From a bacterium (lineage in GTDB: Bacteria; Bacteroidota; Ignavibacteria; Kapaibacteriales; UBA2268), in assembly GCA_030431515.1 (NCBI GenBank), contig JAUIIX010000026.1, forward strand, positions 1 to 40,663: a stretch of 40,663 bases of DNA, in the 5' to 3' direction. Position 1 is the first letter of the stretch, and each line of letters starts with the position of its first letter. Below the pieces are notes generated by a model. The model was not told the origin of the DNA and searched no databases. It saw only the letters and a program-made list of their open reading frames with translations. Both the position numbers and the translations under genes were made by a program. Of the stretch, positions 17,001 through 39,805 are shown piece after piece.

Positions 17001-18906
17001 GATCTTCCACAAATAATTCAGCTCTATATATATTACCTCTATTTTCTACCCAAACTGTATCGTAAACCACACTTTCATTGCAAGTTGATAAGTACATATC
17101 TCTTGGTTGGTCACAATACAAATCTATAGCAGCTATTCTAAATATATTTCCAGCTGCTTGCGATAATAGTCTTTTGGGTACTTGTTTGTATTCTTCTTCA
17201 CTTCCAGTATATTCAGTTGATTGTACTGCCATACCATAGAAAATCGTATCAGTATATGCACTTAAATCAATATTAAACTGTTTTGTAGTTTGAGGTATAT
17301 CAACAAAAGAAAATGCTCTAAACCACTCTCCATTTTCCGGTTTGATATAATAGTCCATAACTTCATTTGAATTCTTCTTAACAAACAAACTAAATTGTCT
17401 TTCAACATAGTCAAAATCTTCAGTTGCTATTGTTGAAATACTTTGACTTTGATCATTATTAGGAGGAATTATAGATGGAAAATCATTTCTTGAATCAAAT
17501 CTAAATCTACCATATCCAGCTCTACTATTTCCACGTGCTGCAGATACGGAAACATTATTGACATTACTTTTTACACCTACTTCTACATATCCTCCAGATC
17601 CAGCTCCTCCATTAGGACTTCCGCTCTCTCCAGAATTTCCATCGGCTTCAAAAGTAACATCATTAATATTTGTGGCAAAAACCCTTATGGCACCACCACC
17701 GCCACCTCCGTAACCAGATTTAGCAACAAATAACGGAAAACTTCCTTGGGGATTCCCACCACCACCACCTGAGCCACCAGATATTGGGATACCATATCTA
17801 TTTCCATGAGCTTTTCCACCATTATTTGCAGATGTACCACTTTCATTTTGTGCTGATGTTGAAAATCCACCTGAACCACCAATTCCTCTATCTTTATTAC
17901 CACTACCACCACCATATTCACCTTCACATTCATCACATGCAGCCCAAGAAGCTATTCCACTTTTTCCAAATGGATGTCCTGTTCCACCAGCAGATGATTC
18001 ATAAGCACCAACATTACATATTGCTCCAGGTACACCATTTAAACTATATCCTGCTATATTTTGACCATTTGAATTAATTTTATAAACACTTCCGGTACCT
18101 ATACCAGGTAATTCGTAACTGCCACTTCCAAGTGTATTTCTTCCTCCATTTCCACCTCCAGAAAAACCATCACCACCATTCGTTCCATTATCTAAATCAG
18201 CAAATCTACCACCACCACCACCACCACCAGGTCCACCATTTCTACCTGATGCACTTACACTTATTTTAGAGTTACTTGTACCTTTAATATCACCTTTTGT
18301 TAATAGAATAAAAGGTAAATACCCTTGATTTCCATCAGTATTTGGGTCGCAATCATTTTTAGAAACTGTGTAAGTATCTCCCGCTAAAATCATTTCATCA
18401 ACTATCATTGCACCACGGGGTGATCTTTTCCCTAAATTTCCTTGACCTAAAACTCTTTCAGCATCACCTGTTCTATCACCAAAAGGAAATGGTTGTACTA
18501 TATAAAATGTATGATTTTCATTTGCTAACGGAATACCATTTTTAACTATTTGAATAGGTATTTTCCATTCATTAATAAGTGCACTCCAGTCCCAAGAGTT
18601 AGGAGTTAAATCAGGTTTCACAAAAATCTGACCACTAATCATTCTTCCATTCCAAGAAACAACAATTGGTCCAAATGTAACTTTATTAGTATCAATTAAA
18701 TTGAAAGGCAAAACTCTTAATGGATCACCTTCTTCATTATTAAGAAATCCATCTGTGCCATATACATCTTTTAAATCATGCACACCAATAATTTCATAAT
18801 ATATTGACATTCCGGGAGACCCAATATCAGGAATCATATAGCTTTGTTGTGATTTAGCAATATTACTAATCATTACAAATAAAATAACAATAAATATGCT
18901 TCTCAT
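14077..18906 (-). CDS. Giant T9SS-secreted protein: glycine-rich region, ASPM-SPD2-Hydin repeats, C-terminal sorting domain
   Basis: 1609 residues. The signal peptide is MRSIFIVILFVMISNIAKSQ. Domains in order: N-terminal domain (20-215); glycine-rich region (about 215-445); beta-rich linker; about seven choice-of-anchor D (ASPM-SPD2-Hydin) Ig-like repeats (about 590-1375) with recurring FGN or DFG onsets such as VDFGNVNIVSSSQKTI and IDFGILNICETNE; a cohesin-like segment (about 1375-1520); and a type A T9SS sorting domain (about 1520-1609, NSLLVMNGSI to LSTGLYIIRL and QKIIINK). It should cross the outer membrane by T9SS and be attached or released. No catalytic motif is visible; a large adhesin or surface-layer role is an inference. 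A TAATTTTG -7 element and AAAAGGA lie upstream. It leads an operon with the OmpA-like, ATP-grasp and HDOD genes. Confidence 0.87.
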   Translation of the reverse strand: MRSIFIVILFVMISNIAKSQQSYMIPDIGSPGMSIYYEIIGVHDLKDVYGTDGFLNNEEGDPLRVLPFNLIDTNKVTFGPIVVSWNGRMISGQIFVKPDLTPNSWDWSALINEWKIPIQIVKNGIPLANENHTFYIVQPFPFGDRTGDAERVLGQGNLGKRSPRGAMIVDEMILAGDTYTVSKNDCDPNTDGNQGYLPFILLTKGDIKGTSNSKISVSASGRNGGPGGGGGGGRFADLDNGTNGGDGFSGGGNGGRNTLGSGSYELPGIGTGSVYKINSNGQNIAGYSLNGVPGAICNVGAYESSAGGTGHPFGKSGIASWAACDECEGEYGGGSGNKDRGIGGSGGFSTSAQNESGTSANNGGKAHGNRYGIPISGGSGGGGGNPQGSFPLFVAKSGYGGGGGGAIRVFATNINDVTFEADGNSGESGSPNGGAGSGGYVEVGVKSNVNNVSVSAARGNSRAGYGRFRFDSRNDFPSIIPPNNDQSQSISTIATEDFDYVERQFSLFVKKNSNEVMDYYIKPENGEWFRAFSFVDIPQTTKQFNIDLSAYTDTIFYGMAVQSTEYTGSEEEYKQVPKRLLSQAAGNIFRIAAIDLYCDQPRDMYLSTCNESVVYDTVWVENRGNIYRAELFVEDHTWDNGNNGFTLLFPSVDVPIEEKDSMRFIVRYTHTPGQVGIISNTLSIPYGKNLGSVDDIYKIEYNVDISNLKVNWYRSDGTLINDTLKVDLCLNDSFAESLSLRNESNIDFTIKNVTYKSTNSDYTLSYLNEVVEVGNSSNIQVGYNQASAATGTFTNTIYFEVDECDNLVDSLVIVFNVKEALLELSDGNSFVDFGNVNIVSSSQKTITVINKGNAPAYIENEPTLLPPYELVSSNKIFPLILLPGEEVEFVVKFSPQSEGTQIDNLILNLTDKFDGCNQTSTFELRGNGVESNLEFPYEIDWKSVQSCHSRPDSTIIIKNNSTFDVKINGSHTITGVNPENWEITNNIPSNGNLIAKNGGELSFDIRYKADIGVDGPKTAILKIPTDDISLPTESDPSKHLIIIQLKAYKEGLEISVLPNPLIDFGNSPINEESIKIALNVTNNSTGLTRTLNQIKPGEFRMYNGVNQTFAPGETKQIEVTVKLSEVGNYESDFELVFDTFGSNNCPATYTMQAKAFGIKGETKINPSNIDFGILNICETNESSSFTIENIGEVPIVLNDITLEGTDATYYTLSPFTSNDDINVAEIVNYDLSFTNIDDSYGTFTANVAVNITENGKDTTYKIPVTTIVSKGVKSNPIILDFGQVVSTLSYNLDIDLENQHNWSIVLEDMLQVQSFPTFSFDEASLDGKTIVGLETVNIMFTPPAVGVYEDSIKVAYLINGNCQDTITVILKGEGMPASELTLFIPDQVIDPTLAYVELPIMAQITNGLTSVPKFNIQDFTLTMDRTTFHPKNLSKGRINSITYPNQNEFSISISIDDVEVGTELKQISSLYAVPLLGNTEFSSITLSDMVVDKSGIFSNFIYQTANVELIICKADGDRLLKNNDIIELKVANLNSLLVMNGSIIESGYNQLDIISIDGKSIFSHNWIREIGGDKEFNFEYDVNELSTGLYIIRLTTPNDVLTQKIIINK
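17570..18260 (-). repeat. Glycine-rich low-complexity coding segment
   Basis: This segment codes for residues about 215-445 of the giant T9SS protein and is locally richer in GC than its surroundings because of GGN codons. Runs such as GGPGGGGGGGRF, GGSGGGGGNPQG and YGGGGGGAIRVFA recur. Their pattern resembles glycine-rich domains that pack as polyglycine-II-like helices or edge a beta-helix. Two apparent open frames within it on other frames (17685-17936 and 17784-18077) are by-products of the low complexity and are not genes. Confidence 0.75.
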
Positions 18907-30571: not shown

Positions 30572-33340
30572 ATGAAACGTATTTACAAAATCAACATATT
30601 GATTTTCTTGTTTTTTGCCTCAAGTATTACTTATGTATTTTCAAATGGAAGTGGAAAGACTGGACAAACTAACACTGGTTGTGGGACAGGTTCTTGCCAT
30701 GGTTCATCAAACTCAAATACTACTGTTACTGTATCAAGTGCTAGTGGATTTGAAGTTGATCCAAATTCTACAGTTAATTTAACTGTTACTGTTGAAAACT
30801 CCTCTGGTCAATCAAAAGCAGGAGCTAATATATCTGTACAAACTACATCAGGAGGAGGTTCAAATATTGGAACATTAACAGCTGGGAATGATTTAAAAAC
30901 TCAAAGTAACGAATTAACTCATAAAACAAATGGAGGAAAAGCTCTAACAAATAATAAAGCTACATTTGATTTTGAATGGAAAGCACCTTCAACTGCAGGT
31001 GAATATTACATAAAAGCAGCAGGAAATGCTACAAATGCAAATGGCAATACTGGTGGTGACCAATGGGCATTAATGATTCCTAAAAAAATAACAGTTAGAG
31101 GGATTACATTAACTTCATTATTAGGTGGTCAAGAATTATGTGCAGGGACTTCAACTAATATTACTTGGAATCAATTTGCAATTGCAGATGTTAAAATCGA
31201 GTTATCTACTAACGGTGGATCTTCATTTGATGAAACTATAGTACCTTCTACTCCAGGAGCTTCTGGAACTTATGTTTGGAATATTCCATCTAATTTTAAT
31301 GCTGATAACTATAGAATTAGAATTTCAGATGCTTTAAATTCTAGTATAAACGCTTCTTCGACAAGTAATTTTTCAGTTTCAGGTGAAACCGCAATTACTA
31401 CTCATCCTCAAAGTACACAAGTGTGTTCAGGTGAGAATGTTAATTTATCAGTAATTGCAAGTGGGAGCAACTTAACATATCAATGGTATAAAAATGATAA
31501 TAAAATGACTGGTAAAACTGCAGATAATTTAGCATTTACTAATGTAATTTCTGATGATGCAGCTGCTTACTATTGTGAAGTTTCAAGTTCTTGTGGGAAT
31601 CCTATTAATTCAAATATTGCAAATCTAACAGTATTAGAAAGTCCAAAAATTACTTCAATTTCTAATAATAAAAGTCTTTGTATAGGTGAAAATTATTCGA
31701 TTGAAGTAATTGCTACAGGTAACAACCTAACTTATCAATGGTATAAAGATGATAACATTATCCAAAATGAAACGACTTCAATCCTTCAAATTAATAATGC
31801 GAAAGAAAGCGATGATGCAAATTACAAAGTTCAAATCACTTCTCCTTCATGTGGAAATATAACATCAAATCTCGTTAAAATTACAGTATTAAAAGAAGCT
31901 CAGATAGTAAATCATCCATTAGATACAATAGTATGTGAAAGTGGAACATTACTTCTATCTACAACGGCTACTGGTTCAGCTTTACAGTATCAATGGAAGT
32001 TAAATAATCAAGATATTCCAAATGCTAATAATCCTAACTTAATAATAGAAGGATTCTCAAATAGTCACGTTGGTAAATACAAATGTAGTGTTAAAAATCT
32101 ATGTGGAGAAATATTTACAAATGAAGCAAATGTTTCTATTAAGTTCTTACCAACAATAACTAATAAATCAAAAGATGTAAGTGTAAAAGAAGGAGTTGCA
32201 ATTACTCTATCTGTTGATGCTACTGGAGAAGATTTAATTTATGAATGGTATCTCAATACAAAGAAAATTAGTAATCAATCAGGTAAAGATATTATTATTA
32301 ATAATATAAGAAAAGCTGATGCTGGAGATTATGTATGTAGAGTTTATAATGATTGTGGTTTTGTAGATTCTGAACCAATTAAAGTTACTGTTACAAACCC
32401 TGGAACTGGAGGAATATTAACGTTGTCTGAAACTAAAATAGATTTTGGGCAAGTTTTAATTGGACAAAAGAAAGATTTATTATTCAAAAAATTCTTTAAA
32501 AATATTGGTGATGATATAATTACAGTATCAAGTGTAAAAATTAAATCAACAAACTCAGTATTTTCTTTAAAAGAAATATTTTCATTTGGATTAGATCCAG
32601 AAGAAGAAAGGGAATTATTAGCAACTTTTAGACCCACAAATGTCTCTGAATTCAAAGATACATTAGTAATTACTATAAAAGACCAAACTGAACAATTATT
32701 AATTCCGATGAGCGGTATTGGAGTTGAAGTTGATAATTCAGCTAATGTAGTTGCATCTGCTTCTTCTTTAAATTTTGGTGATATTGTTGCGGGTACTTTC
32801 TCAGAGAAAGAGCTTGAGCTTGATAATAAATCTACTAATAATTCAGCAACATTAACTTCTATTGATTTTTCAATTCCAGAGTTTAAATTAAAAGAAAGTT
32901 TAACTTTTCCTTTAGTGCTTGATAAATCTTCTAAAATGAAATTTGAACTTATGTTTGCACCAACTAACGAAGGTGTGTTTGAAGGAAAAACTACTTTTAA
33001 TTTCTCAAATTCTGATAAAATTGATGTTAGTTTAAAAGGAACAGCAACAATTGCATCTGTTTCAAATTACTTTGAGTCAATAAATGTATTCCCTAATCCA
33101 AGTAATGAGTATATTACTTTAAATATTAATTCTAAAAATCACCAAGAATTTACTGTTAAGATAATTGATATAAATGGTAATTTAGTTTATAGTTTAGGTA
33201 ATCAAACCTTTACTAAAGGTAACAATAAATTAAATTGGAATGGATATGATTCAAATGGAAACAAAGTTGCAAATGGAGCGTATAACTTGTTAATTATGAA
33301 TGATAAAGTTAATATTGTAGAAAAAATTATAGTAAAATAA
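30572..33340 (+). CDS. T9SS-secreted protein: choice-of-anchor V, Ig-like, ASPM-type and FlgD-like sorting domains
   Basis: 922 residues. The signal peptide (1-24) is followed by GCGTGSCHG (36-44), the start of a choice-of-anchor V (Reeler-like) domain to about 178 (APSTAGEYYIKAAGNATN). CGTGSCH has C-x4-CH spacing, so covalent haem or metal binding is possible. A further beta domain (about 180-270) precedes four Ig-like repeats (about 274-355, 356-440, 442-524 and 526-608) with LTYQWYK, LQYQWK and LIYEWY cores and paired Cys. Two ASPM-SPD2-Hydin repeats follow (about 615-720 and 725-825, with DFGQV and NFGDI). The C-terminal sorting domain (835-922) has VFPNPSNEYI, NGYDSNGNKVANGAYNLLI and ends IIVK. 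It should be surface-exposed; the function is unknown. Two terminators follow. Confidence 0.88.
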   Translation: MKRIYKINILIFLFFASSITYVFSNGSGKTGQTNTGCGTGSCHGSSNSNTTVTVSSASGFEVDPNSTVNLTVTVENSSGQSKAGANISVQTTSGGGSNIGTLTAGNDLKTQSNELTHKTNGGKALTNNKATFDFEWKAPSTAGEYYIKAAGNATNANGNTGGDQWALMIPKKITVRGITLTSLLGGQELCAGTSTNITWNQFAIADVKIELSTNGGSSFDETIVPSTPGASGTYVWNIPSNFNADNYRIRISDALNSSINASSTSNFSVSGETAITTHPQSTQVCSGENVNLSVIASGSNLTYQWYKNDNKMTGKTADNLAFTNVISDDAAAYYCEVSSSCGNPINSNIANLTVLESPKITSISNNKSLCIGENYSIEVIATGNNLTYQWYKDDNIIQNETTSILQINNAKESDDANYKVQITSPSCGNITSNLVKITVLKEAQIVNHPLDTIVCESGTLLLSTTATGSALQYQWKLNNQDIPNANNPNLIIEGFSNSHVGKYKCSVKNLCGEIFTNEANVSIKFLPTITNKSKDVSVKEGVAITLSVDATGEDLIYEWYLNTKKISNQSGKDIIINNIRKADAGDYVCRVYNDCGFVDSEPIKVTVTNPGTGGILTLSETKIDFGQVLIGQKKDLLFKKFFKNIGDDIITVSSVKIKSTNSVFSLKEIFSFGLDPEEERELLATFRPTNVSEFKDTLVITIKDQTEQLLIPMSGIGVEVDNSANVVASASSLNFGDIVAGTFSEKELELDNKSTNNSATLTSIDFSIPEFKLKESLTFPLVLDKSSKMKFELMFAPTNEGVFEGKTTFNFSNSDKIDVSLKGTATIASVSNYFESINVFPNPSNEYITLNINSKNHQEFTVKIIDINGNLVYSLGNQTFTKGNNKLNWNGYDSNGNKVANGAYNLLIMNDKVNIVEKIIVK

Positions 33341-33463: not shown

Positions 33464-35533
33464 TTAATTAATTATTAGTTTACTTACTTTTTGATTAATT
33501 CCATTAACTCTTATAAAATAAACACCTTTATTTAGTCCTTTAGGTAAATTTGTAGAATGACTAAAAGTACCTTCTACTAAATTACCTTCAAATACTGAAT
33601 ATCTAATAGTCCCAGTAAAATCAATAATATCAATAGAATAAAAGCCGTTTTTTTCAATTTCAACATCGATATTGAGTGCTTCAGAATTAATAATTGGGTT
33701 AGGATAACTCTTTAATCCAGAAACTTCGATTCTGCTATTTACGTTTAAAATAATACTATTTGTTTGAAAAAATGAAAATGCTTCGTTTAATCTAACTGAG
33801 TCAGGTTGAAAATCTAGTTCAATACTATTAACTTTATATTCTTCATCAACAATCAAAGTATCTTTATATAAGTTACCATCTATGTAATAATCAATAACTA
33901 AAGGGAATTCATACATATCCAATGTTTTAGAGTGTTTTCTTGCGTCATTTTTTTGTATTTGTTTTACATTCATATTAAATATAAACTTATCTCCATCTGG
34001 TAAAATTTCATACCTGAAATCTATAATAGGATGTCCTGCAGAATACAAAAACTGGTCAAAAAACTTTCTAATTGGAATTAATGGGTTACTTGCTCTATCT
34101 TCAAAATATTTTATCATAACTTCACCATCAATTGAAGTATATGCATATTCTTGTAAATAATCTTTTAAAATTTCAAAAAATTCCTCTTTACCAATAAAAT
34201 TTCTCAATTGATGATATATCCAAGATGATTTCTGATAAATAATATACCATCTATTATTTCCAAAAACAGTAGATTCAATATCTTCAAGATAAATAGGGGG
34301 TTGTGCAATACCCGTATTAGGAGCATATTTTAAATAGAATTGTTTAATATCAACCATTTTATAGTTATAAGCACTATCATTATTTCTTCCTTCCCAAAGT
34401 GCTTCAGACCATTGAGCCCCACCTTCATTTAACCATATATCTCTCCAGGTAGTAGGACTTATTAAATCACCCAACCACATGTGAGCTAACTCATGAGCTA
34501 ATAATCCATCTTCACCATTTAAAGCACGTCGTCTAATTGTTTGGATAGATTGATGTTCCATTCCTGCAGCCCAAAAATTTTCTACAACTACTGTCCCAAA
34601 TTTTTCAAAAGGATAAGGTCCAAACAAAGTTTGAAAATATGTAATCATATCAGGTAATACATCTAAAGTTTTATCAGCATAATACTTAGACCCATCATCA
34701 TCGCTCAAAGTATAATCAACTTCCCATATATAATTATCAATTAAAATTGAATCTTGATTATTCTCAATTCTAGCAACTTTATTTTCATAAGTATAAAATT
34801 TAGACGCATTTGCTACCATCAAATATGATGCTATTGGATATTCATGTTCCCAATAAAACTCGTTATAATCTTTATTAAAATTCTTTTCTTTATATAGACC
34901 ATTCGATGCACCTATAAACTCACTTGGTACTCTTAATCTTAGTGTAAACATTTGCTTTTCATAAGGAGTATCATTACATACTAACCAATGTCTTGCATCA
35001 TTAGGTTGCGACATTGTATATGCTAATCTTTCAGGTGCATCTTCTTGACCGACTAATACAAAACCAATATTTTCTTTACCAATATAAGTATATCCAATAT
35101 CAAAGATTAAGGTATCTCCAACGATTAAATCTTCTTGAAAAGTTAATTCTAATTTTAAGTTATTTATAAAGTTAAATTTATAGTTTTTATTACTTAGTTT
35201 TACCGAATCAATTCTAATACTTTTAACATCAAATTCTATTTTGCGAGTATTCGCCGAATCAATTACTAATGTGATTTTTTCATTTGCTGACCAATATCTA
35301 TCAGTTCCAACAGTTGTTTCTGCATTAAGAGGATTTCTCCAATCCATCTCTAAATCTATCTGTAATATATCATAATTCCTTCTATTAAATTCAATTGCTG
35401 AGTTTAGCTCATAAGATTTTATATGTTTGAAGTCATGAAATTTACCACAGCCATCATGCTGATGCTCCAGACTTTGAGAATACAAAGCAGAACTAATTAA
35501 GAAAGTAAATAAAACTATGTACCTTAATGACAT
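33464..35533 (-). CDS. T9SS-exported M1-family zinc aminopeptidase
   Basis: 689 residues with a signal peptide (MSLRYIVLFTFLISSALYSQ) and an N-terminal beta domain. The gluzincin catalytic domain shows LLAHELAHMWLGD (zinc ligands His347 and His351, catalytic Glu348), and the third ligand Glu370 in DIWLNEGGAQWSEAL. The exopeptidase motif GAMEN is replaced by GMEHQ (324-328), so N-terminal recognition may differ from classical aminopeptidases. A C-terminal T9SS sorting domain (about 610-689) has YPNPIINSEALN, LNKGVYFIRV and VSKLIIN. It should act at the cell surface or outside, releasing amino acids or peptides. GGAG lies 7 bases before the ATG. It follows the TonB receptor gene by 44 bases and may use the metal that the receptor takes up. 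Confidence 0.9.
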   Translation of the reverse strand: MSLRYIVLFTFLISSALYSQSLEHQHDGCGKFHDFKHIKSYELNSAIEFNRRNYDILQIDLEMDWRNPLNAETTVGTDRYWSANEKITLVIDSANTRKIEFDVKSIRIDSVKLSNKNYKFNFINNLKLELTFQEDLIVGDTLIFDIGYTYIGKENIGFVLVGQEDAPERLAYTMSQPNDARHWLVCNDTPYEKQMFTLRLRVPSEFIGASNGLYKEKNFNKDYNEFYWEHEYPIASYLMVANASKFYTYENKVARIENNQDSILIDNYIWEVDYTLSDDDGSKYYADKTLDVLPDMITYFQTLFGPYPFEKFGTVVVENFWAAGMEHQSIQTIRRRALNGEDGLLAHELAHMWLGDLISPTTWRDIWLNEGGAQWSEALWEGRNNDSAYNYKMVDIKQFYLKYAPNTGIAQPPIYLEDIESTVFGNNRWYIIYQKSSWIYHQLRNFIGKEEFFEILKDYLQEYAYTSIDGEVMIKYFEDRASNPLIPIRKFFDQFLYSAGHPIIDFRYEILPDGDKFIFNMNVKQIQKNDARKHSKTLDMYEFPLVIDYYIDGNLYKDTLIVDEEYKVNSIELDFQPDSVRLNEAFSFFQTNSIILNVNSRIEVSGLKSYPNPIINSEALNIDVEIEKNGFYSIDIIDFTGTIRYSVFEGNLVEGTFSHSTNLPKGLNKGVYFIRVNGINQKVSKLIIN

Positions 35534-35577
35534 AAAAATTCTCCAATTCTAAAATAAAATAGGCAAGACGTTATTAA

Positions 35578-37773
35578 TCAAAAATAATTATTTAATCCAA
35601 TCGAAATGTTAATTCCTGACTCTGGCATTATATCTTTTATTCTTGATAAGTGATTTCTGTAACTTGTATTAAATATATTCCTTACATTTAATACAATTTG
35701 ATTTTGAGAACCAAAAAGATAGATATAATAATTAGATTTTAAATTAAAAATAAGATAAGAATTTGTTTTTGTTTCAAACTCATCAATTTTACCTTGTTTA
35801 TTAGCGAATTCTGAAATTATACTAATATCATACTTCTCTTTTTTAAATTTTATTTCTAAAATATTTTTTAGTGGTGGTATCATAGGTAAATAGAAATCAC
35901 TTTCTAAATTTCTTCCGATAGTATATTGTACTACGTTTTTAAAAATAAAATTTTTATAATTCAAATTTAATTGATATTCAAATCCATTTAGATTAGCTCT
36001 AATTCCTTGATTTTCATAAATAGGAAGTCTTGTTTTTATTAAATCTATTTCGCCAGTGTTTCTTGGAGTGATAAAATTAAAAAAATAGTAATTAAAGAAA
36101 TTAAATGAATTTTCAATTTCTATTTCCTTATAACTATTTTTAATACTGTACATTAATTCTACATTTAAAGAGTTTTCAATTTTTAAATTTTGATTACCAA
36201 TATCATAGGAATATGAAGCCAAATGAGGTCCCATTGAATATAGTTCTTCTAAAGTAGGGATTCTTTCATCATAAGACATAATTAAACCTAAAATAGAGTT
36301 CTTTAACTTTTTATAAACACTAGAAAATGAGAATGTTGTTATATTATAACTTTTGTCATAAAAAGTTGAATTTTTGGAAACACTTTGATCTTTGTTTGTT
36401 AAGTAATTTTTGTTTTCTTGTCTTAATGCAAATGAAATATCAAAATCATTTAGTTCATAATCCTGAATAAGATAAAAAGCAAAATTAAAATCTATCACTT
36501 CAGGAGTTCTAACTGCAGCACCTGCATCATAATAATTGCGAGAAAAGTTAACTCCAAAATCACTATCATCTGCACCTAAAATATTTTCAGATTCAAAATC
36601 TAATCTAACTACATGATTTTGAACAATATATTTTGCACCTAAAATTCCACTTGATTCATACTCATTATGTTCTAAATGATTATACAAATAATTGAATTTT
36701 ATGTCCTTAATAAACTTATTATCGTGAAAATGATAATTATAATTAGTTTTAAAATTATTTTTGAACATTTCTATATTAACACCCTTAGAGTGTGTTCCTT
36801 TAGGACCTGGAGGTATTCCATAATCATTTTGATAGTAATCATATACAACACCATAATCATAGTTTTTAGAATGATTACCTAAACCAATTGAGTAATTACT
36901 TGAATTAATTTGAGAGTTTATTAATTCTAAATCAGGAGTATTTATATTTTGCGAATTTACTAATGATACTTTTCCTTTTATATTAATATCTTCATAAATA
37001 TTAGAAGTATTTTCTATATAATTCATTACTGCTAAGTTATTACTATGATAATAGTTTTTGATGTCAGTAATGCTTTTATCTACTTTTTCTATAGGAATAT
37101 CATTCTTCACTAAATCTATTACACCAGCTGAAGAAGATGAAGAATATTTAAGTGTTTTAGGTCCACGTAAAATACTAATTCCCTTAATCGATTGAGGGTC
37201 TATAGCTACATTATGGTCTGGTGAATTTGCTGATAAATCTAAATTAGCAAATCCGTCAGAATTAATTTTTAATCTATCATTAGATAAACCTCGAAAAACT
37301 GGGCGAGTAGGGGCAGAACCCATTGCACGAATATCCACACCTTTAATTGCCTGCATCGACTCACCAAATGATGCTTGTAAATTTGAATTAACTTCTTTAC
37401 TACTTAATTTGTAAGATGATAATATAAAAGAATCCAAAGTGCTGTGTTCTTTCTCACCACTTACTATAATATTATGTAAATGAAAGTCAAGAGGATGCAT
37501 TGGTAATATGAAAGTGTTATTAATATTACTCAAATCAACGTCATAATGTTCAAACTTATAAGACAATTTATATAAATCTATGTGAACTTTATTCTTATTG
37601 CTTTTAAATTCAATGATACCCTTGTCATCTGAATATAAAGTATCTTTATTATCAATAATAACTTTAACTTGAGGTATATATTTTTTAGTATAATCATCAA
37701 AAATACTGGCTTTGTATTTGTTTGCAAAGCCAGTACTTATTAAAAGAACATAGATTGAAATTAATAATTTCAT
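35578..37773 (-). CDS. TonB-dependent receptor, ZnuD-like (metal uptake)
   Basis: 731 residues. A signal peptide (1-17) precedes a carboxypeptidase-regulatory-like domain (about 20-92), the plug (about 110-230) and a 22-strand-type barrel ending in an aromatic (GLNNYF). The plug reads VFRGLSNDRLKINSDG (159-174), then SANSPDHNVAIDP (181-193, His187) and ILRGPKTLKYSSSSSAGVID. The S-x-DH-x-V-x-x-DP pattern is characteristic of ZnuD-type receptors for zinc or other transition metals; the Zn assignment itself is an inference. The ATG overlaps the end of the His-rich lipoprotein gene by 4 bases (ATGA), so the two are translationally coupled. A matching inner-membrane transporter is not in the window. 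Confidence 0.88.
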   Translation of the reverse strand: MKLLISIYVLLISTGFANKYKASIFDDYTKKYIPQVKVIIDNKDTLYSDDKGIIEFKSNKNKVHIDLYKLSYKFEHYDVDLSNINNTFILPMHPLDFHLHNIIVSGEKEHSTLDSFILSSYKLSSKEVNSNLQASFGESMQAIKGVDIRAMGSAPTRPVFRGLSNDRLKINSDGFANLDLSANSPDHNVAIDPQSIKGISILRGPKTLKYSSSSSAGVIDLVKNDIPIEKVDKSITDIKNYYHSNNLAVMNYIENTSNIYEDINIKGKVSLVNSQNINTPDLELINSQINSSNYSIGLGNHSKNYDYGVVYDYYQNDYGIPPGPKGTHSKGVNIEMFKNNFKTNYNYHFHDNKFIKDIKFNYLYNHLEHNEYESSGILGAKYIVQNHVVRLDFESENILGADDSDFGVNFSRNYYDAGAAVRTPEVIDFNFAFYLIQDYELNDFDISFALRQENKNYLTNKDQSVSKNSTFYDKSYNITTFSFSSVYKKLKNSILGLIMSYDERIPTLEELYSMGPHLASYSYDIGNQNLKIENSLNVELMYSIKNSYKEIEIENSFNFFNYYFFNFITPRNTGEIDLIKTRLPIYENQGIRANLNGFEYQLNLNYKNFIFKNVVQYTIGRNLESDFYLPMIPPLKNILEIKFKKEKYDISIISEFANKQGKIDEFETKTNSYLIFNLKSNYYIYLFGSQNQIVLNVRNIFNTSYRNHLSRIKDIMPESGINISIGLNNYF

Positions 37774-38228
37774 TCTATGTAAATAGGAATTTGTGGGGTA
37801 ATAATATCTGAATGATCACCATGCATAATAATCAATTTAAAAGCAGTACTTCCTTTAACTAAGGAATTTATAGTAAAAGCAAATTTAGATGTACTATTTG
37901 TATTTTTGTTTATTGAAATAAAACTATCTAAAATCTCCCAACTAAGACTAATTTCATCTTCATCAGATTCAATGAAATTTCCATCTTCATCTTTAAATAA
38001 AATATCAAAATTTAAAGTATCATTTAGTTTTAAATTTATCACTTTATTATATTCATCACTAATTACCCCTTTATCAATGTGCATATAAGTTGTATCATTT
38101 TGAGTTATAATCCATTCAACAGGTTCGAAATGGTCATCATGATGCTCGTCTGCATCTTTATCTTCACATGAAGAAATTAAAAACATAGCTGTAATAACAA
38201 CTAAAAAAAGCCATACTTTCTTAAGCAT
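37770..38228 (-). CDS. His/Asp-rich lipoprotein coupled to a ZnuD-like receptor
   Basis: 152 residues. The lipoprotein signal ends FLISSC (Cys21), followed by an acidic stretch EDKDADEHHDDHFEP with His29, His30 and His33, which looks like a metal-gathering site. The rest is a single beta-sandwich-like domain that closes with IMHGDHSD (His136, His139) and PQIPIYIE. I recall lipoproteins with a similar HGDH-aD end next to metal TonB receptors, without a known function; this is from memory and not a search. It is probably on the periplasmic or outer face of the outer membrane, handing a metal to the receptor or holding it. An AAAGGA site precedes the start. It is coupled to the receptor gene by an ATGA overlap. 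Confidence 0.8.
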   Translation of the reverse strand: MLKKVWLFLVVITAMFLISSCEDKDADEHHDDHFEPVEWIITQNDTTYMHIDKGVISDEYNKVINLKLNDTLNFDILFKDEDGNFIESDEDEISLSWEILDSFISINKNTNSTSKFAFTINSLVKGSTAFKLIIMHGDHSDIITPQIPIYIE

Positions 38229-38277
38229 AGTTAAATCCTTTATTTATTATAAAAATGTTATTTTTAGAAATAGAAAC

Positions 38278-38577
38278 TTAATAAAAAGGATAAAAAGGGG
38301 GGGCTTTGATTGAAAAGAAATAATCTAGTATTTCTAATTTTAATGATTCTAAAATTATATTAGTATCAATTCTTTCTACAAATAGAAGAAATGAAAGCTG
38401 TATATTGCAACAGAATTGTTTGTTGGACTTAATTAATTCACATAATTTACAGTCAATTATATCTTCAGTATTTGTTAATTTAGTATTTGAATTATAATCT
38501 ATATTATGGTGATGGAATACCCCTATAGAACTTATATTAGTAAACGCAAATAATAATATATATATAATTAATTTCAT
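38278..38577 (-). CDS. Small secreted His/Cys-motif protein, DUF2946-like in plan
   Basis: 99 residues. An N-terminal hydrophobic signal is followed by HHH (22-24), a CxxC (Cys43-Cys46 in DCKLCEL), a CC pair (56-57) and the tail SIKAPPFYPFY. The order FHHH, CxxC and a C-terminal (R/K)APP recalls the DUF2946 group of small proteins found beside copper or zinc transporters in Proteobacteria; relation by descent is not shown. The His and Cys residues suggest metal binding or sensing at the envelope. It lies 22 bases after queA and 49 before the His-rich lipoprotein gene. It may mark the start of the metal cassette while sharing queA transcription. Confidence 0.72.
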   Translation of the reverse strand: MKLIIYILLFAFTNISSIGVFHHHNIDYNSNTKLTNTEDIIDCKLCELIKSNKQFCCNIQLSFLLFVERIDTNIILESLKLEILDYFFSIKAPPFYPFY

Positions 38578-38599: not shown

Positions 38600-39805
38600 T
38601 TATAATATTATAGATGAATCGCCATAAGATAAAAATCTAAAATCATTTTCTAAAGCAAATTGATATGCTTCTTTAAATAAATCATCACCCATAAATGCAG
38701 CTGTTAAAAGAATTAAAGTACTATATGGTTGATGGAAATTTGTAATAACAGAATCAACTAATTTAAATTTATATGAAGGAACAATAATTAACTGAGTATA
38801 ACCTATCAATCGTTTTAAATTCTTATTCATCATATACTTTTTTAAATTCTTCAATAAGCTTAGTTTATCTTCGAACTTCATTTCATAAGATTCCCATTGT
38901 TCAATAAAAACTTCACCTTCGTAAGAATTTAATAACTTTTGAGAAAAAATCATAAGTGATTCTAATGTTCTAACTGACGTAGTACCAACAGCTAATATTT
39001 TTTTTCTACTTTTTACTTGTACAATCAAATCTTCAAGAAACTCCAAACTAACTGAGAAAAACTCTTCGTGCATCGGGTGTTCTTCTACCAACTCAACAAA
39101 AAGTGGTTTAAAAGTTCCTGCTCCTACGTGAAGTAATATTTCATTATAAGTAATATTATTTTCTTTCAGATTTTTAAATACTTTCTCTGTAAAATGAAGT
39201 GCAGCAGTAGGTGCAGCAACAGAGCCATCTTCTTTAGCAAATACAGTTTGGTATCGTGTTTTATCACTTTCTTCTAAATCTCTTTCAATATATGGTGGTA
39301 AAGGAATTTGCCCAAGACTATTAATTATCTCAAAAAATGAAGCATCTTCAGTCCAATTAAACTCTAATGTAAAATGACTTTCAATAATATCTAAGACTTT
39401 AGCACTTAATGTGTTATATTCTTTTGAAATATTTTTAAACTCATCACCGATTTTAATTTTCTTACCTTTTAAAATACAATTCCAAGTAACTTTATATTTC
39501 GCAAGTAATGAAATTTGAGGGTCAATAGAAGGTAAAATAGGATTTAAACAAAATATTTCAACTATCTTGTTATTTTTCCTTTCCATATAAAACCTGGCGG
39601 GAATAACCTTAGTATTATTAAAAACTAAATGATAAGTGTTATCAATAACTTTATGTAAGTTTGAAAACTTATCTATTTTAAAAGAATTATCTGCTCTATT
39701 AATAATTTGAAGCTTAGATTCATCTCTATTTTCTAAAGGGTATAAAGCAATCTTTTCAGCTGGCAAAACATAATTGTAATCATTAATATTTATTTTTGGA
39801 ATCAT
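38600..39805 (-). CDS. queA: S-adenosylmethionine:tRNA ribosyltransferase-isomerase
   Basis: 401 residues, longer than the usual 340-360 owing to internal insertions. It transfers and isomerises the ribosyl part of SAM onto preQ1 in tRNA, giving epoxyqueuosine at the wobble position. Family motifs in order are NDYNYVLPAEKIALYPLENR (start), VFNNTKVIPARFYMER, VAAPTAALHFTE, HVGAGTFKPL, HPMHEEFFSVS, AVGTTSVRTLES, TNFHQPYSTLILLTAAFMG and FRFLSYGDSSII. It is cytoplasmic. It follows batE by 6 bases and leads into the small His/Cys protein after 22, so the Bat operon, queA and the metal genes may share a transcript. Confidence 0.96.
   Translation of the reverse strand: MIPKININDYNYVLPAEKIALYPLENRDESKLQIINRADNSFKIDKFSNLHKVIDNTYHLVFNNTKVIPARFYMERKNNKIVEIFCLNPILPSIDPQISLLAKYKVTWNCILKGKKIKIGDEFKNISKEYNTLSAKVLDIIESHFTLEFNWTEDASFFEIINSLGQIPLPPYIERDLEESDKTRYQTVFAKEDGSVAAPTAALHFTEKVFKNLKENNITYNEILLHVGAGTFKPLFVELVEEHPMHEEFFSVSLEFLEDLIVQVKSRKKILAVGTTSVRTLESLMIFSQKLLNSYEGEVFIEQWESYEMKFEDKLSLLKNLKKYMMNKNLKRLIGYTQLIIVPSYKFKLVDSVITNFHQPYSTLILLTAAFMGDDLFKEAYQFALENDFRFLSYGDSSIIL

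Follow-up and report, generated by a model that had tools for sequence, protein, structure and literature searches.

How might a bacterium in whose genome no Fur-family regulator is found control the uptake of a metal, and what could two small proteins carrying putative metal ligands be doing next to a single TonB-dependent receptor gene? These questions are raised by a group of genes on contig JAUIIX010000026.1 (assembly GCA_030431515.1; Bacteroidota, Ignavibacteria, Kapaibacteriales, UBA2268), at positions 33,464 to 38,577 of the 40,663-nucleotide (nt) stretch analysed here, which is referred to as the window; coordinates are on the minus strand unless the plus strand is named. The first cassette gene is an open reading frame (ORF) for a 99-residue candidate arrest peptide and metal sensor (38278..38577), with orthologues at the equivalent place in other genomes, and it is followed by genes for a His/Asp-rich lipoprotein of 152 residues with lipobox Cys21 (37770..38228) and, by profile matches, for a ZnuD-like TonB-dependent receptor of 731 residues with the plug sequence NSPDHNVAIDP (35578..37773). 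A sequence-only reading of this DNA had described these three genes and a following aminopeptidase gene as a metal-acquisition cassette, and the four ORFs do lie on one strand with the HHH, CxxC, APP-tail, HGDH-x-D and plug motifs that it named, the receptor start overlapping the lipoprotein stop by 4 nt. The answer proposed here, with a probability of about 0.7, is that the locus is an operon for metal acquisition under the control of its own first gene, which would act as a nascent-chain arrest leader.

As judged by comparison across genomes, the small ORF, the lipoprotein and the receptor form a cassette that is conserved in Bacteroidota and related phyla. When genomes were first scanned with the window receptor sequence alone, nothing matched; with family profiles, the lipoprotein matches 99 of 395 genomes sampled phylum-wide at 1e-3 and the receptor 156 at 1e-60. 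The lipoprotein gene lies upstream on the same strand, at a median gap of 74 nt, in 92 of the 96 receptors scoring above 590 bits and in 0 of the 26 receptors of 356-590 bits, a set for which the list was used down to 356 bits, at most two receptors were scored per genome and a split receptor gene with a lipoprotein (G211) was not counted. The four high-scoring receptors lacking an adjacent lipoprotein comprise one whose lipoprotein is on a separate contig (G055), two second copies beside a first (G410, G373) and one located 96 nt from a contig end (G435). Among 80 relatives the receptor is present in 21, the window's genome included, with an upstream lipoprotein identified at 19 and a small ORF with an [R/K]xPP tail at 16 of these 21 loci. 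A collection of named loci, 80 kept from 249 matches, has the lipoprotein in 76 and the small ORF in 70 of those 76, and four of the six that lack the small ORF have less than 430 nt of upstream sequence; their titles include Kapaibacterium, Ignavibacteria, Melioribacter, Fodinibius, Zixibacteriota, Gemmatimonadota, Latescibacterota and Calditrichaeota. The survey and named collections overlap, and removal of repeated sequences before pooling left 133 loci. The three families thus co-occur across genomes, and the idea of two small partners tied to one receptor holds (lipoprotein 92/96; small ORF in 82 of 92 survey loci). As a separate observation, three loci of genus g24 (L014, L015, L018) have a MazG-like ORF, named by eye, between the lipoprotein and receptor genes.

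From its sequence features, the small protein is best read as a predicted regulatory arrest peptide of the CruR/CutF type rather than as a metal-loading partner. Its putative metal ligands are HHH at residues 22-24 (38506..38514), just after a hydrophobic N-terminus that looks signal-like by eye, and CKLC at residues 43-46 (38440..38451), and its tail, KAPPFYPFY, begins with the putative ribosome arrest motif KAPP at residues 91-94 (38296..38307), which aligns with RAPP, RSPP or RGPP of orthologues. An ORF with an [RK][ASG]PP tail, followed by 1-7 residues and with its stop at most 500 nt upstream of the lipoprotein, is found at those 82 survey loci (92 after one at a contig end, G350, was left out of 93), compared with 6 of 1146 control ORFs of similar size elsewhere in the same loci (p 1e-95). 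The motif is RAPP in 51, RGPP in 14, RSPP in 14, KAPP in 2 and KSPP in 1, so that RAPP or RGPP accounts for 65 of the 82, and xPP stands 1-7 residues from the stop in every one. A Cys, whose position CKLC shares, occurs 45-50 residues before the motif in 82/82 (in other zones, 0-3/82 at 15 to 40 residues and 2-22/82 at 51 to 75), with H-x(0-2)-H upstream of the Cys zone in 80/82; the third residue after this Cys is again Cys in 40, Ser in 9 and His in 8. From CxxC to the motif there are 44 residues in the window, with KAPP and not RAPP, and 41-45 in 39/93 loci with strict CxxC. The rest of the sequence barely aligns (mean column identity 18% in 40 sequences; of the 70 named leaders, 39 are in the leader alignment, A5). 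Computable close pairs have ratios of nonsynonymous to synonymous substitution (dN/dS) of 0.09-0.50, and the leader is therefore a translated, selected protein.

In Bordetella the DUF2946 protein CruR, in which CxxC stands 45 residues ahead of RAPP, is a copper sensor encoded first in a TonB-receptor operon, over which it exerts control by means of RAPP (PMC9426467). It arrests in vitro with two Pro codons in the P and A sites, and RAPP, RGPP and partly RSPP and RDPP arrest ribosomes, ORFs with RAPP or RGPP being found upstream of TonB-receptor genes throughout Gram-negative bacteria (PMC12992588). The sequence-only reading had suggested comparison with DUF2946 (PF11162); the window protein has no Pfam match and no NCBIfam match above cut-off, and matches neither DUF2946 nor LIC10965, but among orthologues there are weak matches, DUF2946 being the commonest Pfam match of the leader family (weak, 5/40, best 2.7e-4) and the NCBIfam family LIC10965 matching as often (weak, 5/40, best 6.7e-4). 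The window's genome (G000) has no DUF2946 match, and the leader beside G055's lipoprotein scores 2.5e-3, below cut-off. Genomes of the taxonomic order to which the window belongs (G053, G074 and G079; loci L226-L228) encode proteins that pass the Pfam cut-off for DUF2946 and have CxxC and a RAPP tail. In Balneolia (G156, G315 and G427, loci L091, L090 and L100, as well as L197 and L203), the receptor is followed by another small HxH/CxxC ORF, ending in KSPP, which stands at the head of a further TonB-receptor gene (804-811 residues, named by eye) that has no lipoprotein.

Between the last codons of the leader and the lipoprotein start, the RNA of the family exceeds its shuffles in stability (mean z -1.76, 44% below -2; 127 loci). 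Pairing was tested between a 25-nt segment that starts one codon ahead of the Pro-Pro pair and the lipoprotein start region (-25 to +12), omitting 15 of the 133 loci in which no lipoprotein start could be assigned. In the remaining 118, the two segments of a locus pair at -12.23 kcal/mol, compared with -7.69 kcal/mol for GC-matched mismatched loci (p 1.7e-16), and 43 loci fall in the best 5% of pairing where 5.9 are expected. Removal of 23 near-duplicates leaves 95 loci with -11.77 kcal/mol for own, -7.78 for mismatched and -7.61 for shuffled segments (p 9.5e-12 and 2.5e-14), and this pairing is stronger than that of synonymous recodings drawn evenly (p 2.6e-13) or in line with the codon usage of the receptor gene (p 2.4e-12). 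Control segments 60 nt upstream and just after the leader stop show no effect. Pairing is strongest for 16-nt windows starting 0, 6 or 12 nt beyond the first Pro codon and, on the start side, for those beginning 30 to 12 nt before the start codon; windows at least 18 nt further down- or upstream give no effect or a slight opposite one, save a weak start-side window at -54. The strongest stretch lies close to the one that would be covered by a ribosome holding the Pro-Pro codons in its P and A sites. Since the paired sequences differ between loci, pairing has been kept while the letters change.

The same relation appears at receptors of another arrangement. Among 40 ZnuD-like receptors that lack an adjacent lipoprotein (13 of them scoring 319-355 bits; G301 and G423, of 356-590 bits, not included), 22 have an RxPP leader ORF upstream, and there the arrest segment is complementary to the start of the receptor gene itself (p 3e-4 and 1.6e-5, or 1.0e-3 and 1.9e-4 for the 18 of 22 left after dereplication); four of the 22 come from genomes also in the first set. 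Closer to the window, 15 hand-picked loci of its family or title pair as a group (p 3e-4, strongest in L003), as do the 13 left after removal of near-duplicates (p 1.2e-3). In the window itself, the minimum-free-energy pairing joins a 5' arm in the last codons of the small ORF (38279..38291), partly within the footprint of a stalled ribosome, with a 3' arm (38235..38249) that contains AAAGGA, a Shine-Dalgarno-like sequence of the lipoprotein gene.

The arrest-leader reading is favoured because of the fixed spacing from Cys to [R/K]xPP, the motif 1-7 residues from the stop, the place before the structural genes and the RNA complementarity to the next start. The nascent chain of the leader would stall its ribosome at the C-terminal [R/K]-x-Pro-Pro, while the exported His and Cys residues would read the metal supply. 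When metal is scarce, the stalled ribosome would cover the last leader codons, which otherwise pair with the lipoprotein start region, and the start site would thereby be freed, so that lipoprotein and receptor are made; ample metal would bind the nascent chain and release the stall, the hairpin would close and the operon would be switched off. The receptor would then take up the metal, Zn(II) in all likelihood, by way of an Asp-His-Glu-His site of the ZnuD type, with the Ig-like lipoprotein probably capturing metal for it by means of three invariant His residues and one Asp. The sequence-only reading had envisaged a metal-loading or sensing pair at the outer membrane; of these two halves sensing is the better, and the features of an arrest leader speak against the small protein as a loading partner.

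Several observations weigh against this proposal, some in the family and more in the window. The strict ORF is missing from 10 of the 92 survey loci; three of these carry variants (a longer tail in G084, RDPP in G140 and an ORF split over two frames in G327), six belong to family groups f34 and f50 (G101, G177, G184, G195, G289, G439) and the last is G052. The second Cys is replaced in 42/82 leaders, unlike what the copper precedent would lead one to expect. A simulation of start-site accessibility, from which 7 of the 118 loci were left out for spacing, placed 12 of 111 above all spacer-shuffled nulls, compared with 8.5 expected, which is at best weak, although 33 stood out against the same expectation when the arrest segment was shuffled too. 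The window's own motif has K in place of R, as in only 3/82 leaders, and KAPP is absent from the available text of the main paper on such motifs (PMC12992588). Pairing in the window, at -6.7 kcal/mol in an AT-rich leader, is not above chance (p 0.34 against shuffles and 0.53 against usage-weighted recoding; leader z 0.08), its simulated start-site accessibility moves in the wrong direction under a stalled ribosome (0.38 to 0.29), and another Kapabacteria contig (L173) shows no pairing at all. Moreover, the gene at 38600-39805, which we take from its sequence to be queA, ends 22 nt upstream of the 99-residue ORF on the same strand, so that the leader may not head its own transcript here. With a hairpin at chance level and KAPP as its motif, the window receives by position, spacing and partner genes a mechanism that is well supported for the family.

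The metal is most likely Zn(II), as indicated by invariant ZnuD ligands, a window receptor devoid of Cys and the invariant H33, H136, H139 and D141 of the lipoprotein. The receptor family profile matches ZnuD (PDB 4rdr, 5.7e-71) ahead of OprC (5.2e-26) and then of heme, siderophore and B12 receptors, in agreement with the ZnuD-type plug recognized by the sequence-only reading. The window receptor alone matches 4rdr at 3e-23 and the NCBIfam ZnuD model NF038289 at 9.8e-38, with 130.2 bits against a curated cut-off of 950, and for this reason it is called ZnuD-like and not ZnuD proper. Zinc in ZnuD is bound by Asp99, His100, Glu340 and His499 (PMC4557270), to which D186-H187 (37213..37218), E371 (36661..36663) and H517 (36223..36225) correspond in the profile alignment to 4rdr. 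D186, H187 and E371 are kept in 174/174 rows and H517 in 173/174, with one gap; the rows overlap and count some genomes twice, and only the survey loci test H517 freely, because the 80 named loci were fetched by a pattern that includes it.

The lipoprotein has no Pfam match and no NCBIfam match above cut-off. In 42 single-domain sequences (the alignment, A4, holds 41 of the 76 named lipoproteins), C21, H33, G126, H136, H139 and D141 are invariant, the last three within HGDHSD at residues 136-141 (37806..37823); this is the motif with which the protein had been said to end, somewhat loosely, since it stands 11 residues before the C-terminus. An AlphaFold2 model shows a single immunoglobulin-like (Ig-like) domain (pLDDT 90.5, pTM 0.74), and the lengths of orthologues fit one to three copies of it. 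Fold searches show no function, finding a common Ig-like arrangement with best hits to an SbsC S-layer domain (Foldseek E 2.1e-4) and a nuclear pore protein (Z 9.5). By its invariant His and Asp residues the lipoprotein probably captures metal for the receptor.

Conventional regulators were looked for in the same material. The Fur family (PF01475) has no match in the window's genome, which is rated 100% complete, while a control search was positive in 13/14 genomes; metal-dependent control therefore has to come from elsewhere. The Zur operators for which the sequence-only reading had called did not turn up: upstream of the leader, matches to Zur, Fur and copper-type operators equal those in shuffles in the 133 loci, and no dyad found de novo recurs in more than 3 of them. 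A ZnuA-like protein is present in the window's genome. The co-occurrence of ZnuA was considered as a sign of zinc and set aside, as it shows no association (15/21 receptor-bearing relatives compared with 38/59 others); heme-copper oxidases, considered as a sign of copper, are near universal (374/395 sampled genomes) and thus uninformative except in G084.

The most serious rival keeps the switch and changes the metal: the leader would be a Bacteroidota-type CruR, and receptor and lipoprotein would import Cu(II) for respiratory oxidases. The characterised relatives CruR and CutF sense copper, DUF2946 and LIC10965 are the commonest, though weak, matches of the leader family, CxxC occurs in 40/82 leaders and in the window, and a heme-copper oxidase is encoded in 93/94 genomes with a receptor above 590 bits and in 21/21 receptor-bearing relatives compared with 51/59 others (p 0.10). 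On the other hand, this association says little where oxidases are near universal, and in G084, whose single-contig genome carries the cassette, no heme-copper oxidase was matched. All four ZnuD zinc ligands are present in the receptor, which lacks Cys in the window copy and whose family fits ZnuD far better than the copper receptor OprC, while CrtA, the receptor linked to CruR, has been described as forming a separate cluster from the structurally known receptors (PMC12914433). Copper is consequently considered unlikely, although it is the alternative that stands up best.

A second alternative concerns the step at which control is exerted: as in CruR (PMC9426467), a stalled ribosome could prevent Rho-dependent termination in the leader instead of freeing a start site. 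This would suit the weak hairpin of the window and a slight excess of C over G in the leader regions (54/82 above the mean of their own shuffles). The start-site complementarity across the family speaks against it, as does a gap between leader and lipoprotein gene that is mostly short (from stop to start 49 nt in the window and 33-363 nt in 118 loci, compared with 162 nt in B. pertussis; PMC9426467), and termination is regarded as an improbable basis for the control.

The small protein could also be a secreted metallochaperone or metal-loading factor for the lipoprotein and receptor, with a purely structural PP. Its metal-ligand residues, its signal-like N-terminus, its selection at the protein level and its presence beside the receptor operon at 82/92 loci would all be at home in such a protein. 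Nevertheless, little of the sequence outside H-H, Cys and xPP is conserved, yet Cys and xPP keep an almost constant distance, with xPP 1-7 residues from the stop in all 82, and selection for pairing with the next start acts on the codons as such, for which a chaperone would have no use; we regard this role as quite improbable. Least probable of all is a hairpin that merely couples translation of the leader to that of the next gene, with no metal-regulated arrest. Such coupling is common, and any ribosome at the leader stop would open the hairpin, but the fixed Cys spacing, the H-H motif and the RxPP tail, conserved while the rest is not, would go unexplained. The arrest leader with an RNA switch at the next start is accordingly the reading retained here.

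Downstream of the receptor, the window encodes an M1 aminopeptidase of 689 residues (33464..35533; domain matches) with a type IX secretion system (T9SS) tail (TIGR04183, 32 bits against a cut-off of 23). It had been counted as a member of the cassette and has to be dropped from it: among 173 loci only the window has it, with a weak match (1.8e-6) in L158, and it is not among the ten largest clusters of downstream neighbours. Its mature part starts with LEHQHDGCGKFHDF, a His/Cys stretch of its own. The order of transcription is queA, 99-residue ORF, lipoprotein, TonB receptor and aminopeptidase, with gaps of 22, 49, -4 and 44 nt. The nearest upstream ORF of at least 90 residues is on the opposite strand in 73/129 loci, and promoter-like sites in the window are no more frequent than in shuffles. 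Divergent from the cassette, a gene at 30572-33340 on the plus strand encodes a 922-residue repeat protein with GCGTGSCHGSS in its early part and, by eye, a T9SS-like tail. A very His-rich ORF of 97 residues at 17784-18077, also on the plus strand, is antisense to the Gly-rich part of a 1609-residue gene and most likely an artefact.

In the SecM-secA pair, a ribosome stalled near the end of the leader opens an RNA structure that hides the start of the next gene. The predicted leader would act likewise; it resembles SecM, and the RAPP arrest peptides ApdA and ApdP (PMC10951233, PMC10987492), in placing the arrest near its end, and differs from them in carrying putative metal ligands, as they read protein export. 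In CruR-BfrG/CrtA-BP2921 of Bordetella pertussis (PMC9426467, PMC12914433) the first gene encodes a small exported protein in which CxxC stands some 45 residues ahead of a C-terminal RAPP, and a TonB-receptor gene comes after it; the predicted leader, putatively exported and with KAPP in the window, has a similar layout and also precedes a TonB receptor. Unlike that operon, the present cassette has a lipoprotein gene between those for leader and receptor, its receptor is ZnuD-like and its leaders are often without the second Cys; the window protein has no Pfam DUF2946 match, and the leader RNA of the family pairs with the next start, whereas CruR acts through Rho. CutF-CutO-CutG of Rhodobacter capsulatus (PMC9973294) is a further parallel, with an exported Cys-motif leader, a Pro-rich C-terminus and a stem-loop over the Shine-Dalgarno sequence of the next gene. 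There, however, copper turns a copper oxidase on, whereas metal is expected to turn an uptake system off here, and the present family has RxPP at a fixed spacing and belongs to other phyla.

RAPP ORFs before TonB receptors are already known as a class of small secreted proteins with a C-terminal motif (PMC12992588), from which the window differs by its KAPP and its intervening lipoprotein gene. No lipoprotein cassette or start-site pairing is described in the available text of that paper, in which the words 'zinc', 'ZnuD' and 'lipoprotein' do not occur. The receptor shares with ZnuD of Neisseria meningitidis (PMC4557270; PDB 4RDR) the SPDH plug motif and, by alignment, the Asp-His-Glu-His high-affinity zinc site, and differs from it in lying far below the NCBIfam cut-off, in a genome in which no Zur was found, and in the added lipoprotein partner and leader. 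Neither the lipoprotein family and its tie to ZnuD-like receptors, nor the way Cys and His are laid out in these phyla, nor the start-site pairing was found in the open-licence PubMed Central literature, as far as its available text goes.

The fullest form of the proposal is that a zinc-responsive arrest peptide controls zinc uptake in Zur's stead in bacteria without Fur-family regulators. It would do so by an RNA switch with the arrest codons as one arm and the next start site as the other, and would occur in Kapaibacteria, Ignavibacteria, Balneolia, other Bacteroidota, Gemmatimonadota, Latescibacterota and Zixibacteria, an Ig-like metal-binding lipoprotein being the hitherto unnamed partner of the receptor. 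So specific a claim can be advanced only tentatively, at somewhat less than even odds. In the literature covered, proteobacterial copper systems are the only ones in which metal sensing by a nascent chain has been put to experimental test; if the proposal is true, the cassette extends such sensing to a zinc-type receptor and to several further phyla, and the RNA mechanism explains the conservation of the last leader codons. A widespread lipoprotein family is singled out as the standing partner of ZnuD-like receptors, and the locus suggests a route by which the uptake of zinc may be controlled in a bacterium without Zur.

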